A DNA stretch of 21,560 nucleotides from a virus: positions 1-21,560 of the IMG/VR virus record IMGVR_UViG_3300029911_000156; one strand, 5' to 3'. The notes under the pieces are model-generated. The model was not told the DNA's origin. It ran no database searches and worked only from the letters and a program-made list of their open reading frames with translations. The translations under genes were made by a program, and so were the position numbers. Numbering within the stretch: position 1 is the first letter of the stretch; each line of letters opens with the position of its first letter. Shown here piece after piece: positions 9,540-12,377 of the stretch.

Positions 9540-10202
9540 CTAATGCTGCGCGTGCAGTTCCGGCTTCTTGGCCTTCACTCTCGGCGCAACCTTGCCGGCC
9601 TGCTTAGCACTCAACGGCTTATCGGCTTTCGCCTTGGCCGCCTTCTCCTCAGCCTTCGCCACGAGGCCCGGATCGACATGGATCAACTTGGTGATGTCAA
9701 TCTTGGCCGGGCTGGCCTCGCGAGCAGCCAAGTTAGCCTCCGCAGTGACGAGGATGGAGCTATCCTGCTCCAGCAACGCCTTCGCTGCGGAAGTGATCTC
9801 CGAGGCTTTCACATGGCTGATCTTGATGGAGTTCGCTTTCATCGCGTCCTTCACCAAGTTGCGCGCCAAGCGCATAGCTTCGGTCATCACCGCCCCGCTG
9901 ACTTTCTTTGCTCGGACCGCGCCAGTCACCTTCACCTTGCCGTCGTACATATCCTGCACATTGGCTTCGGCTTTGGTCTTGATCGCGGCCTTGCGCTCGG
10001 CCTCGTCGGGGTAGGCTTCTTTGGTTAGCTTCGACATGCCACGTTCAGCGATGGTCTTGAGACCCTGCATGAGGGCTTCGCGATACACCGCGTCAGGGAG
10101 TTTGCTGGTATCAACGGAGACTTCGCCAGCACCGTTCTTGAGTGCGAAGCTAATCAACGATGACGGCGCAACATCCGTCGTGTCTTGGTCTAGGTCAGAC
10201 AT
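9540..10202 (-). CDS. Helical Lys/Ala-rich hypothetical protein (220 aa)
   Basis: Not recognised. The N-terminal 60 residues include a segment SLISFALKNGAGEVSVDTSK; the middle is a series of helices (GAVMTEAMRLARNLVKDAMK); the C-terminal 40 residues are highly basic and alanine-rich (KAEEKAAKAKADKPLSAKQA), like a histone H1-type nucleic-acid-binding tail. I infer DNA or RNA binding. The ATG is preceded by AGAGG nine bases upstream. The frame stays open and protein-like for about 28 codons upstream (REIKGISIPYDERIQTLKLL), overlapping the end of the previous gene, so the true protein may be longer and joined to it by a frameshift. Confidence 0.72.
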   Translation of the reverse strand: MSDLDQDTTDVAPSSLISFALKNGAGEVSVDTSKLPDAVYREALMQGLKTIAERGMSKLTKEAYPDEAERKAAIKTKAEANVQDMYDGKVKVTGAVRAKKVSGAVMTEAMRLARNLVKDAMKANSIKISHVKASEITSAAKALLEQDSSILVTAEANLAAREASPAKIDITKLIHVDPGLVAKAEEKAAKAKADKPLSAKQAGKVAPRVKAKKPELHAQH

Positions 10203-10231
10203 AATCTTCTGCCTCTTGTTTGGAAGCAGCT

Positions 10232-10438
10232 TCAACGTCTGTATGCGTTCATCGTAAGGGATGGAGATGCCTTTGATCTCGCGCCGAGGCCAGCGAACTG
10301 GCCTGTTTGCTCAATGCTCGCATCAACAGCGCCCCTAGAACACAGGCGTTCTGTCAGTTGCTTAATCGTGCGGGATTGCACGGGGGAGGGTGCTTGGGTG
10401 TAGGCGTTACTACTGGACGCCTCGTTATAGTACATCAT
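10232..10438 (-). CDS. Small hypothetical protein, possibly the N-terminal part of the next gene (68 aa)
   Basis: The ATG (a double ATG) has GAGG five bases upstream. Residues 22-50 (SRTIKQLTERLCSRGAVDAS and following) look like real protein with a possible helix-turn-helix-like stretch; the last 17 residues (from GARSK) do not. Near 10285-10290 a one-base insertion would carry the reading into the frame of the downstream gene, giving GLRREIKGISIPYDERIQ. Either this is a separate small protein, or a single gene of about 298 residues carries an indel here. Three inverted repeats lie in its leader. Confidence 0.52.
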   Translation of the reverse strand: MMYYNEASSSNAYTQAPSPVQSRTIKQLTERLCSRGAVDASIEQTGQFAGLGARSKASPSLTMNAYRR

Positions 10439-10640: not shown

Positions 10641-10883
10641 TCAATCATCCCAATGCACAGTCTTTTCCATCAATTCGTTGAGCATAGCTTGGAATGCTGG
10701 CGCGAATTTATCGGTTGAATGTGCAGCAATTTCCAGCGCTTCATAGATAAGCTGGAAATGGTCCGCAGCGTGTGTGCCATGTATCTGATAGTTGCCTGTC
10801 AGATTGAAGCGTCCATTAGCTTCTCGCTCAATTGTGAGCGAACCCGGCACATACACCATTGGGTGAGATAGAACTTCGGTCAT
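10641..10883 (-). CDS. Hypothetical protein (80 aa)
   Basis: Not recognised. The protein begins MTEVLSHPMVYVPGSLTIER, has a beta hairpin (RFNLTGNYQIHG) and a helical half (FQLIYEALEIAAHSTDKFAP ... LNELMEKTVHWDD). A perfect AGGAGG stands eight bases ahead of the ATG, so it is probably well translated. It has its own leader of about 110 bases from an extended -10 promoter. No cysteine or catalytic pattern is present. It stands alone, unlike the packed genes further left, and may be an early leftward gene. Confidence 0.72.
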   Translation of the reverse strand: MTEVLSHPMVYVPGSLTIEREANGRFNLTGNYQIHGTHAADHFQLIYEALEIAAHSTDKFAPAFQAMLNELMEKTVHWDD

Positions 10884-10984: not shown

Positions 10985-11015
10985 TTGTTCGATCGCACCA
11001 TTGTAGCACGAACAA
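10985..11015 (-). promoter_or_regulatory. Extended -10 leftward promoter inside an inverted repeat
   Basis: The minus strand reads TGCTACAAT (-10 box TACAAT at 11000-11005 with the TG extension). It is flanked by a perfect 7-bp inverted repeat TTGTTCG (10985-10991) / CGAACAA (11009-11015), which suits a repressor site. The octamer TTGTAGCA on the plus strand is identical to that in the two dyads at 10486 and 10542. Confidence 0.6.
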
Positions 11016-11028
11016 ATCAAGAACGCGA

Positions 11029-11058
11029 TCACGAAATGATCACGGAATTTCACGAAAT
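11029..11058. repeat. Three phased TCACGRAAT repeats
   Basis: TCACGAAAT, TCACGGAAT and TCACGAAAT begin at 11029, 11040 and 11050, one helical turn apart. Dyads overlap them: AATTTC-AC-GAAATT (11046-11059) and GATCAC...GTGATC (11038-11065). They end 24 bases upstream of the -10 box for the gene starting at 10883. They could be activator or repressor sites, or iterons of a replication origin. Confidence 0.7.
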
Positions 11059-11104
11059 TGTGATCGATGTTGCAGCGCACTGCGGCGATTTGTCGCATAG
11101 GCTA

Positions 11105-11449
11105 TCATATCCTGCGCCAAGGTGCCTTGGGTACATAGATAGCATGGCCTGCTAACTCGCCAACTGGCCGCATACCGGGGATAGCCTTGGCCACTAGCTT
11201 GGGCTCAACTGGCTTGGTTGGAAACAGCAACTCCGCCAGCTTGCGCTTATCCGCCCGCTTGGCTCGATTGGCCGCATCCTGCAACTCCTGCGCATCAGGT
11301 AATTCCCTCGCTGGCGAGTTATCCTGAATCCGCTCAATCTGCTCCTCGCCGAAGTCATCAACCCCAGCATCCCCAGGCCGATACTCTCGCCCGGTACTCA
11401 ACAGCTCAACCTTGAATATCACCGGCGGCGGACCAACCTTGCGTGGCAT
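11105..11449 (-). CDS. Hypothetical charged protein, first leftward gene at the divergence (114 aa)
   Basis: Not recognised. The N-terminus is a short beta-like segment (PPPVIFKVELLSTGREYRPG), the centre a charged helix (ELQDAANRAKRADKRKLAEL), and the C-terminus ends in GHAIYVPKAPWRRI. It lies directly behind the second copy of the palindromic promoter/operator, with a leader of about 20 bases, so it should be expressed together with the long operon starting at 7911. The ribosome-binding site is weak (GAGAG eight bases upstream, or AGG closer). An early regulatory role is possible but only inferred from position. Confidence 0.7.
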   Translation of the reverse strand: MPRKVGPPPVIFKVELLSTGREYRPGDAGVDDFGEEQIERIQDNSPARELPDAQELQDAANRAKRADKRKLAELLFPTKPVEPKLVAKAIPGMRPVGELAGHAIYVPKAPWRRI

Positions 11450-11478: not shown

Positions 11479-11509
11479 ATTATGCCACAGATGTTGCGCA
11501 AATGCAACA
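11479..11509 (-). promoter_or_regulatory. Leftward promoter with embedded operator (copy 2)
   Basis: On the minus strand -35 TTGCAT and -10 CATAAT are 17 bases apart, 29 bases ahead of the first leftward gene. The palindrome TGTTGC-N6-GCAACA (11492-11509) sits at exactly the same offset from the -10 box (13 bases) as in the copy at 7937-7967, and CCACA flanks both. This marks a shared regulator. Confidence 0.8.
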
Positions 11510-11544
11510 ACAATCTTCAGCTATTTCTTTCCCCACACTCGCCA

Positions 11545-11799
11545 ATTCCACTAATGGCCTCTAAGGCCCCTATCATGTCACCCTCATTGCCTCATCGGAC
11601 TAACCACACCCTCCCTCCCGGTCTAGGTGCCCCTCCCTCTGTCTGAGGGTAGGTCCTCGGTCGTATATATATGGGGGTTGTAGACAGAGAGACACGCAGA
11701 CACAGGTAGACCTATGGCCGGGGACGGTCGAGGGGTGTGGGAAGCCGAACCAGACAATGAGAGGGACATGAGAGGGGTCTGAGGGAGGCTGAGTGGAAT
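11545..11799. repeat. Long diverged inverted repeat centred on TATATATAT
   Basis: Left and right arms of about 100 bases pair in register (coordinate sum 23344): ATTCCACT 11545-11552 with AGTGGAAT 11792-11799; 11567-11589 with 11755-11777 (20 of 23 matches); CCACACC 11604-11610 with GGTGTGG 11734-11740. Nearer the centre, with small indels, GGTCTA 11620-11625 pairs with TAGACC 11707-11712 and CTCTGTCT 11637-11644 with AGACAGAG 11682-11689. The core TATATATAT lies at 11664-11672. The plus strand is pyrimidine-rich left of it and purine-rich right of it. It lies between the divergent gene sets and could be a bidirectional promoter or a replication origin. No coding sequence is supported here. 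Confidence 0.75.
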
Positions 11800-11942
11800 A
11801 GCTGGGCGCGAATGCAAGCCGCGTGCCAGCCGCGCCAGCCCGGCGATCACAACATCGTGATTTGCCGCGCCAGCCGAACCGTGCGATAACCCGATTGCTC
11901 GCAGCCAATCACGGCAAATGCGACCAACACGGAGACTGCACC
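11800..11942 (+). other. GC-rich leader of the rightward genes with short repeats
   Basis: No gene is supported in these 143 bases. A 12-bp direct repeat GCCGCGCCAGCC occurs at 11829-11840 and 11864-11875. ATCAC-N6-GTGAT (11846-11861 region) forms a small hairpin, and ATTTGCCG (11860-11867) pairs with CGGCAAAT (11912-11919). The ribosome-binding site of the next gene (GGAG) follows. The folded leader may control translation. Confidence 0.45.
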
Positions 11943-12185
11943 ATGACCGACCTCAACACCATGACTAAGGAACAGCTTATCGCAATGGTTGCCCAGATGC
12001 AGGCCAACCCGCGCAAGATGACTGTCAAGGTCTCCGAGAAAGGCGCGATCTCTGTCTATGGCTTCGGCCGCTTCCCCTTCACGTTCTACGCTTCGCAGTT
12101 CGACGCGCTGTTCACCGATGCCAACATTGCCACCCTTCGCGCATTCCGCAAGGCCAATGACAGCGCCTTGGCCATCAAGGCATGA
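11943..12185 (+). CDS. Conserved phage protein with KVSEKGAxSVYGxGRFP motif (80 aa)
   Basis: After an N-terminal helix (TMTKEQLIAMVAQMQANPRK) comes MTVKVSEKGAISVYGFGRFP and FTFYASQFDALF, a pattern I recall from many small phage proteins of unknown function, where the SEKGAxSVYGLGRFPVTLY core is highly conserved. The start ATG has GGAG eight bases upstream; a longer in-frame extension runs into the structured leader and is rejected. It is the first rightward gene. Its stop overlaps a tiny downstream frame as ATGA. The small beta fold suggests a nucleic-acid or protein-binding role; nothing more can be said. Confidence 0.8.
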   Translation: MTDLNTMTKEQLIAMVAQMQANPRKMTVKVSEKGAISVYGFGRFPFTFYASQFDALFTDANIATLRAFRKANDSALAIKA

Positions 12186-12260: not shown

Positions 12261-12297
12261 GGCCTCACCCTCTCGACGGGGGTGGGGCCAAAATTTT
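12261..12297 (+). terminator. Intrinsic terminator, rightward
   Basis: GGCCTCACCC pairs with GGGTGGGGCC (one wobble) around a 9-base loop, followed by AAAATTTT. A second perfect 8-bp hairpin, GTCTGCGC-GTGGG-GCGCAGAC, follows directly at 12298-12318. Together they separate the first two small rightward genes from the late module. Confidence 0.65.
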
Positions 12298-12377
12298 GTC
12301 TGCGCGTGGGGCGCAGACCTGCTGGATAAACTGTGAGCGGTTTTTGAGATGTACGTATCTTCCTCTCTTCTTCGGAC

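Follow-up and report, generated by a model that had tools for sequence, protein, structure and literature searches.

The stretch analysed here (the window) comprises 21,560 nucleotides, positions 1 to 21,560 of the IMG/VR virus record IMGVR_UViG_3300029911_000156, from a soil phage whose genome is read in opposite directions in its two halves. Terminase, portal and capsid genes are read rightward, whereas a helicase gene and other early genes are read leftward. The element under study, a long inverted repeat of 255 bases, lies between the two halves and is made up of the following parts:

11545 to 11799, no strand: the whole element, a diverged inverted repeat with its centre near 11672 (arm-to-arm alignment scores).
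11548 to 11596, plus strand: left array of the units CCACTAATGGC, CTCTAAGGCCC, CTATCATGTCA, CCCTCATT and GCCTCATC, spaced 11-11-11-8, the second unit degenerate (motif matrix, rank 3).
11597 to 11650, no strand: left proximal arm, starting with CCACACCCTCCCTCCCGG (arm comparison).
11651 to 11691, no strand: central spacer, including the nine-base TATATATAT at 11664-11672 (gapped arm alignment and reading of the sequence).
11692 to 11747, no strand: right proximal arm, mirroring the left one (arm comparison).
11748 to 11796, minus strand: right array, inverted, with the minus-strand units CCACTCAGCCT, CCCTCAGACCC, CTCTCATGTCC, CTCTCATT and GTCTGGTT, the last degenerate (motif matrix, rank 1).

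The inverted repeat had been described in an earlier reading of this DNA made from its letters alone (the sequence-only reading), and it proved to be real. The arm-to-arm local score was 78, whereas 2000 dinucleotide shuffles averaged 24 and never exceeded 44, and the second-best inverted repeat anywhere in the window scored 40; inverted similarity no better than chance, the result named beforehand as telling against the repeat, was therefore not obtained. The constant register claimed for it (coordinate sum 23344) holds for the ungapped outer arms, 11545-11611 and 11733-11799, which are 67 nt each and 72% complementary, but not for the inner part, which needs gaps to pair, so that constant register yields just 67 matches over the 128 positions of 11545-11672. 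In the gapped alignment the arms measure 106 and 108 nt, lie 41 nt apart and are identical at 80 of 100 aligned pairs (80%). The nine-base core of that reading was found at 11664-11672, and the plus-strand bias it noted, pyrimidines on the left and purines on the right, was borne out by pyrimidine fractions of 0.66 in the left and 0.30 in the right arm, a bias that is general among relatives. Open reading frames (ORFs) crossing the element are purely mechanical and gave no evidence for a gene, in agreement with the view that it encodes nothing. A protelomerase site was rejected, as had been argued before, with contigs that continue through the element and core flanks that are non-complementary and form no perfect palindrome.

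The terminase protein of the window retrieved 71 loci, each of which was scanned for imperfect inverted repeats with a single scoring scheme. One outstanding repeat (score 49-140, other places mostly scoring 30-47) was found in most of the loci that were sufficiently close and had enough upstream sequence. About 31 distinct uncultured phages were counted with a comparable element, and in the near-complete genomes where the distance was measured, 1.4-2.8 kb separate it from the large terminase gene (TerL) downstream. Locus L022 was marginal (49 for the element, 47 elsewhere), and L010 had a second high-scoring place (72) close by. A similar inverted repeat lies near the divergence point of the Manatee Spring genome MW202489.1 (38395-38621), which encodes family-A polymerase, PD-(D/E)XK nuclease, AAA and Dda-type helicase genes. 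Conservation of a single arm, the other outcome that would have counted against the repeat, did not occur, both arms being present in about 30 relatives.

Searches with blastn detected no similarity between the element of the window and those of relatives, except for the near-identical contig L001, the sole full-length match to this region, and short matches of 22 and 29 bases at the far query end, beside the flanking gene. Partial similarity was seen among the elements of some relatives. What is kept across relatives is the two-armed architecture, not the sequence. Loci with a terminase at most 55% identical were generally without the element, as were the named phages AF, PfDIW6, Jess A and Kuura, which have a related terminase, portal or polymerase, and no window-like DNA turned up in the phage collection searched. 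Terminase relatives in bacterial genome records (mostly at most 50% identical) gave high background scores, and that scan was therefore uninformative.

L001 was 99.85% identical to the window over 6788 bases. Six of its nine mismatches fell within 79 bases (11494-11572), a stretch that takes in part of the left arm and the bases immediately to its left, and one of the nine, G to A at 11566, brings the left arm closer to the right one.

A short motif, YCYYSAT, recurs in most arms at a spacing of 11-11-11-8, inverted between the arms and placed around an AT-rich core; many arms read as CCCYSAT units directed inwards at this spacing. The pooled arms showed an 11-bp periodicity, with a match of 0.345 at lag 11 and 0.329 at lag 22 (background about 0.27), and AT steps recurred at 8, 11, 19, 22, 30 and 33. 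This lag analysis was chosen over a simple expectation-maximisation motif search, which drifted into low complexity. Among about 42,600 sites, an array model from 11 other phages gave rank 1 to the right array of the window and rank 3 to the left array, the motif matrix having been trained without the arms of the window and the spacing derived from pooled data that included both of them. The two arrays are 80 nt (right) and 77 nt (left) from the element centre. AT content across relatives is 59% in the central 40 bp and 37-48% in the arms, and a box resembling GTGTATG..CCCTCCC is present in the left proximal zone of several. Helically phased iterons beside an AT-rich region are a known form of iteron origin (PMC5043065). 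Short repeats in helical phase were found in the pooled arms, in most but not all lineages, and the AT-rich region adjoins them, represented in the window by TATATATAT.

Skew and gene content were followed in 11 near-complete relatives of 46-51 kb. The cumulative GC skew, a check proposed with the sequence-only reading, had its maximum within 3 kb of the element in all 11, and its minimum, again in all 11, at 0.40-0.53 of the genome, inside the late operon. Transcription converges later, at 0.57-0.72 of the genome, and the skew of the co-directional late operon was -0.11 to -0.20 before the minimum and about zero after it. Since the skew changes inside a co-directional operon and ahead of the convergence, the direction of transcription alone fails to explain the switch.

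Exact terminal repeats of 97-127 bp were found in seven of these 11 records and of 31 bp in an eighth, suggesting circular assembly, with ends mostly away from the element. These ends bear on the idea that the element is a packaging-related site, or a replication terminus instead of an origin, which we regard as very improbable. The terminase genes are close, the sign of the skew alone would fit a terminus, and one contig (G005) ends inside the element; the other ends, however, are mostly elsewhere, the G005 break occurs at a near-perfect palindrome, as is typical of assembly breaks, and a terminus here would send replication head-on into transcription on both arms. Both ends of the G005 contig (L073, L074) lie inside the element, probably through such an assembly break, and breaks of this type are worth remembering in searches for similar elements.

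A family-A DNA polymerase is encoded by all 11 relatives, and phage-driven replication would therefore be expected. At L086:6463-9232 (G003), uracil-DNA-glycosylase/exonuclease and family-A polymerase are encoded as two parts, in neighbouring but separate frames. A tyrosine integrase was not found in the 11 genomes, and a prophage was discarded as an explanation. The spacing found here resembles that of R1-type parC, in which a promoter is flanked by two clusters of 11-bp repeats, and this raises the idea of a centromere-like partition site whose iterons are bound by a ParR-like protein. We consider this highly unlikely: the arrays are inverted, not direct, the 11 relatives had neither a tyrosine integrase nor a ParA-type ATPase (PF13614; ParM/StbA was not searched for), and a ParA-type partition locus would require the latter gene.

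Of the two functions put forward in the sequence-only reading, a replication origin is the better supported one: the arrays are iteron-like and two-fold symmetric, they enclose an AT-rich core, their position is conserved and a GC-skew extremum lies nearby. The element is probably, although our confidence is about evenly balanced, the replication origin of this 46-51 kb phage clade, and of a two-sided iteron type. A phage protein would bind the arrays, the core would melt and replication would start at the element. Several copies of a phage initiator may bind the two facing arrays, whose units are about one DNA turn apart, and the resulting symmetric complex would put the AT-rich core that they enclose under strain and so open it; replication would then depart both ways, through the early genes on one side and the late genes on the other. 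A candidate initiator, by exclusion only, is a 231-aa protein encoded at 9540-10235 (minus strand). This protein was present in 13 of the 16 relatives searched and gave no family or fold match.

Several observations weigh against an origin. The element contains no DnaA box, so that a DnaA-box origin was rejected, and neither a DnaB-type helicase in the 11 near-complete relatives nor an initiator gene among the proteins scanned was recognised. Away from the element the DNA is C-rich, a sign of skew that is the reverse of that of the usual bacterial leading strand, and gene composition could explain the switch, because the minimum falls in a conserved gene order; as this order is shared, the 11 relatives are not independent. 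The array model ranked both arrays highly in no more than about half of the held-out lineages, and lag analysis found no 11-bp periodicity in L007, L008, L016, L035, L045 and L049, where other motifs may therefore serve. L033 and L040 had no such repeat despite adequate flank, nor had Caulobacter phage Kuura, a named relative by its DNA polymerase, a comparable element. Finally, the element lies upstream of two putative promoters, as expected of a regulator array:

11847 to 11889, plus strand: rightward promoter-like site, with the palindromic operator TCACAACATCGTGA at 11847-11860, -35-like TTTGCC at 11861-11866 and -10-like CGATAA at 11884-11889 (consensus resemblance; counterparts in relatives).
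11479 to 11507, minus strand: leftward promoter-like site TTGCAT-N17-CATAAT, with a weak -35 (consensus resemblance).

These sites underlie the main rival explanation, a bidirectional regulatory array in which the iterons bind an activator or repressor of the two divergent flanking promoters, which we judge possible, if on the unlikely side. The arrays would both be about 75-140 bp upstream of the predicted starts and are symmetrically placed relative to both promoters. In many relatives the element is bordered, on one side or on both, by promoter-like sites and TCAC-N6-GTGA operators, the latter occurring genome-wide at 0.18 per kb, and divergent transcription would itself create a skew switch at the element. 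Such an array would, however, leave unexplained the AT-rich core and the opposite skew extremum near mid-genome, inside the late operon, and the right promoter-like site is already overlapped by a separate palindromic operator. The second function proposed in the sequence-only reading, a duplicated divergent promoter/leader that would make the two transcripts alike at their 5' ends, was not supported. The promoter-like sites (11847-11889 and 11507-11479) appear, from their consensus resemblance, to sit outside the element on both sides, and the arms would therefore not be transcribed from them.

A different line of evidence concerned the relation between the arms. The arm-to-arm score had a median of 75 within a phage, a value inflated by locating the element at the maximum of that score, compared with about 25, near noise, for arms of different phages; this gap is far wider than expected from the difference between the best and the second-best place in a locus. 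For 13 of 31 phages, namely the ones that had a close relative among those compared, an arm scored higher with its best orthologue than with its partner in the same phage. Arm similarity covers inner and outer zones and ends about 150 bp from the centre.

Both strands folded as RNA, a check suggested beforehand, were significantly more stable than shuffles (z of -6.2 and -6.4). Together with the occurrence of long inverted repeats throughout these phages, this result would fit a long structured RNA or a DNA hairpin or cruciform with selected base pairing, a possibility that was already disfavoured and is, in our opinion, improbable. Mismatches over 21 phages showed no strand polarity (127 G.T and 150 A.C, p = 0.19), and as G.T does not exceed A.C, selection on the RNA structure of either strand was not apparent. 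In alignable phage pairs, paired sites changed mostly one-sidedly, often breaking the pair, and compensatory substitutions were at about the level of independence. The best pair, L031/L036 (82% identity), had one two-sided Watson-Crick replacement against 0.9 expected by independence, and three against 1.1 in the reverse comparison; five other pairs, near 70% identity and more alignment-dependent, were similar, with values equal to or barely above independence. Moreover, the promoter-like sites are directed away from the element, and a known RNA family was ruled out, as the element had no Rfam match. Since G.T and A.C are balanced and changes mostly one-sided, pairing itself does not appear to be the conserved property.

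Over long periods the two arms appear to have evolved in concert, because a phage's own arms match far better than those of different phages, yet closer relatives show no joint change of the arms. These observations could be reconciled if template switching during copying homogenised the arms from time to time, which is a guess and would keep them alike; co-evolution with a binding protein could likewise reconcile them. Template switching has been reported in other systems (PMC8604942, PMC8794818, PMC7202029). The most far-reaching proposal, i.e. two-sided phage origins whose iteron arms evolve in concert, probably through template-switch homogenisation at the origin, with the architecture kept clade-wide and the sequence nearly all replaced, is speculative and rather doubtful as a whole.

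In its origin-like features the element resembles the lambda origin, where several iterons lie beside an AT-rich region in a phage genome and binding opens the AT-rich DNA (PMC5043065). Lambda, however, has 19-bp inverted-repeat iterons in a single array that lies within gene O next to the AT region, whereas the present units are shorter, spaced 11-11-11-8 and arranged in two facing arrays flanking an intergenic AT-rich core, and neither O nor P has a recognised homologue here. Iteron plasmid origins (P1, RK2, R6K, pSC101) likewise combine helix-phased iterons with an AT-rich region (PMC5043065), but differ from the element with its inverted arrays on both sides of the core and no DnaA box. 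The origin of the PLE satellite, with RepA_N iterons, also has noncoding iterons used for replication during phage infection (PMC7145576); its repeats are of another form, and no RepA_N gene was recognised here. R1-type parC shares the 11-bp spacing in two clusters, but not the inversion of the arrays. What sets the element apart from the lambda and plasmid iteron origins is its pair of facing arrays, one to each side of the AT-rich core; a further novelty is the unusual pattern of concerted arm evolution, with arms that are matched within a phage without compensatory change and unalignable between phages. To our knowledge, origins of lytic phages have rarely been located from sequence. If the proposed origin is right, it would give a recognisable signature for an uncultured phage clade with its own family-A polymerase, and would point to an initiator family yet to be found in a clade without a recognised initiator or DnaB-type helicase.

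The genes next to the element are:

11943 to 12185, plus strand: 80-aa protein conserved in many relatives (KVSEKGAxSVYGLGRFPVTLY), without a fold match (sequence comparison and structure model).
11105 to 11449, minus strand: leftward gene, 114 aa, without a family match (ORF list and family search).

The flanking small gene is on the opposite strand in L005 and L009, and the element is therefore not tied to its orientation. Two conserved proteins of no assigned family were modelled, and fold searches gave no match for them. Several TCAC..GTGA-type palindromes, resembling the operators that flank the element, were found at 10998-11090, upstream of the leftward gene at 10641-10883. On the other side, a terminator-like hairpin separates the small gene from a GIY-YIG gene; it is followed by AAAATTTTG and a short block that is conserved in many relatives (12261-12319).
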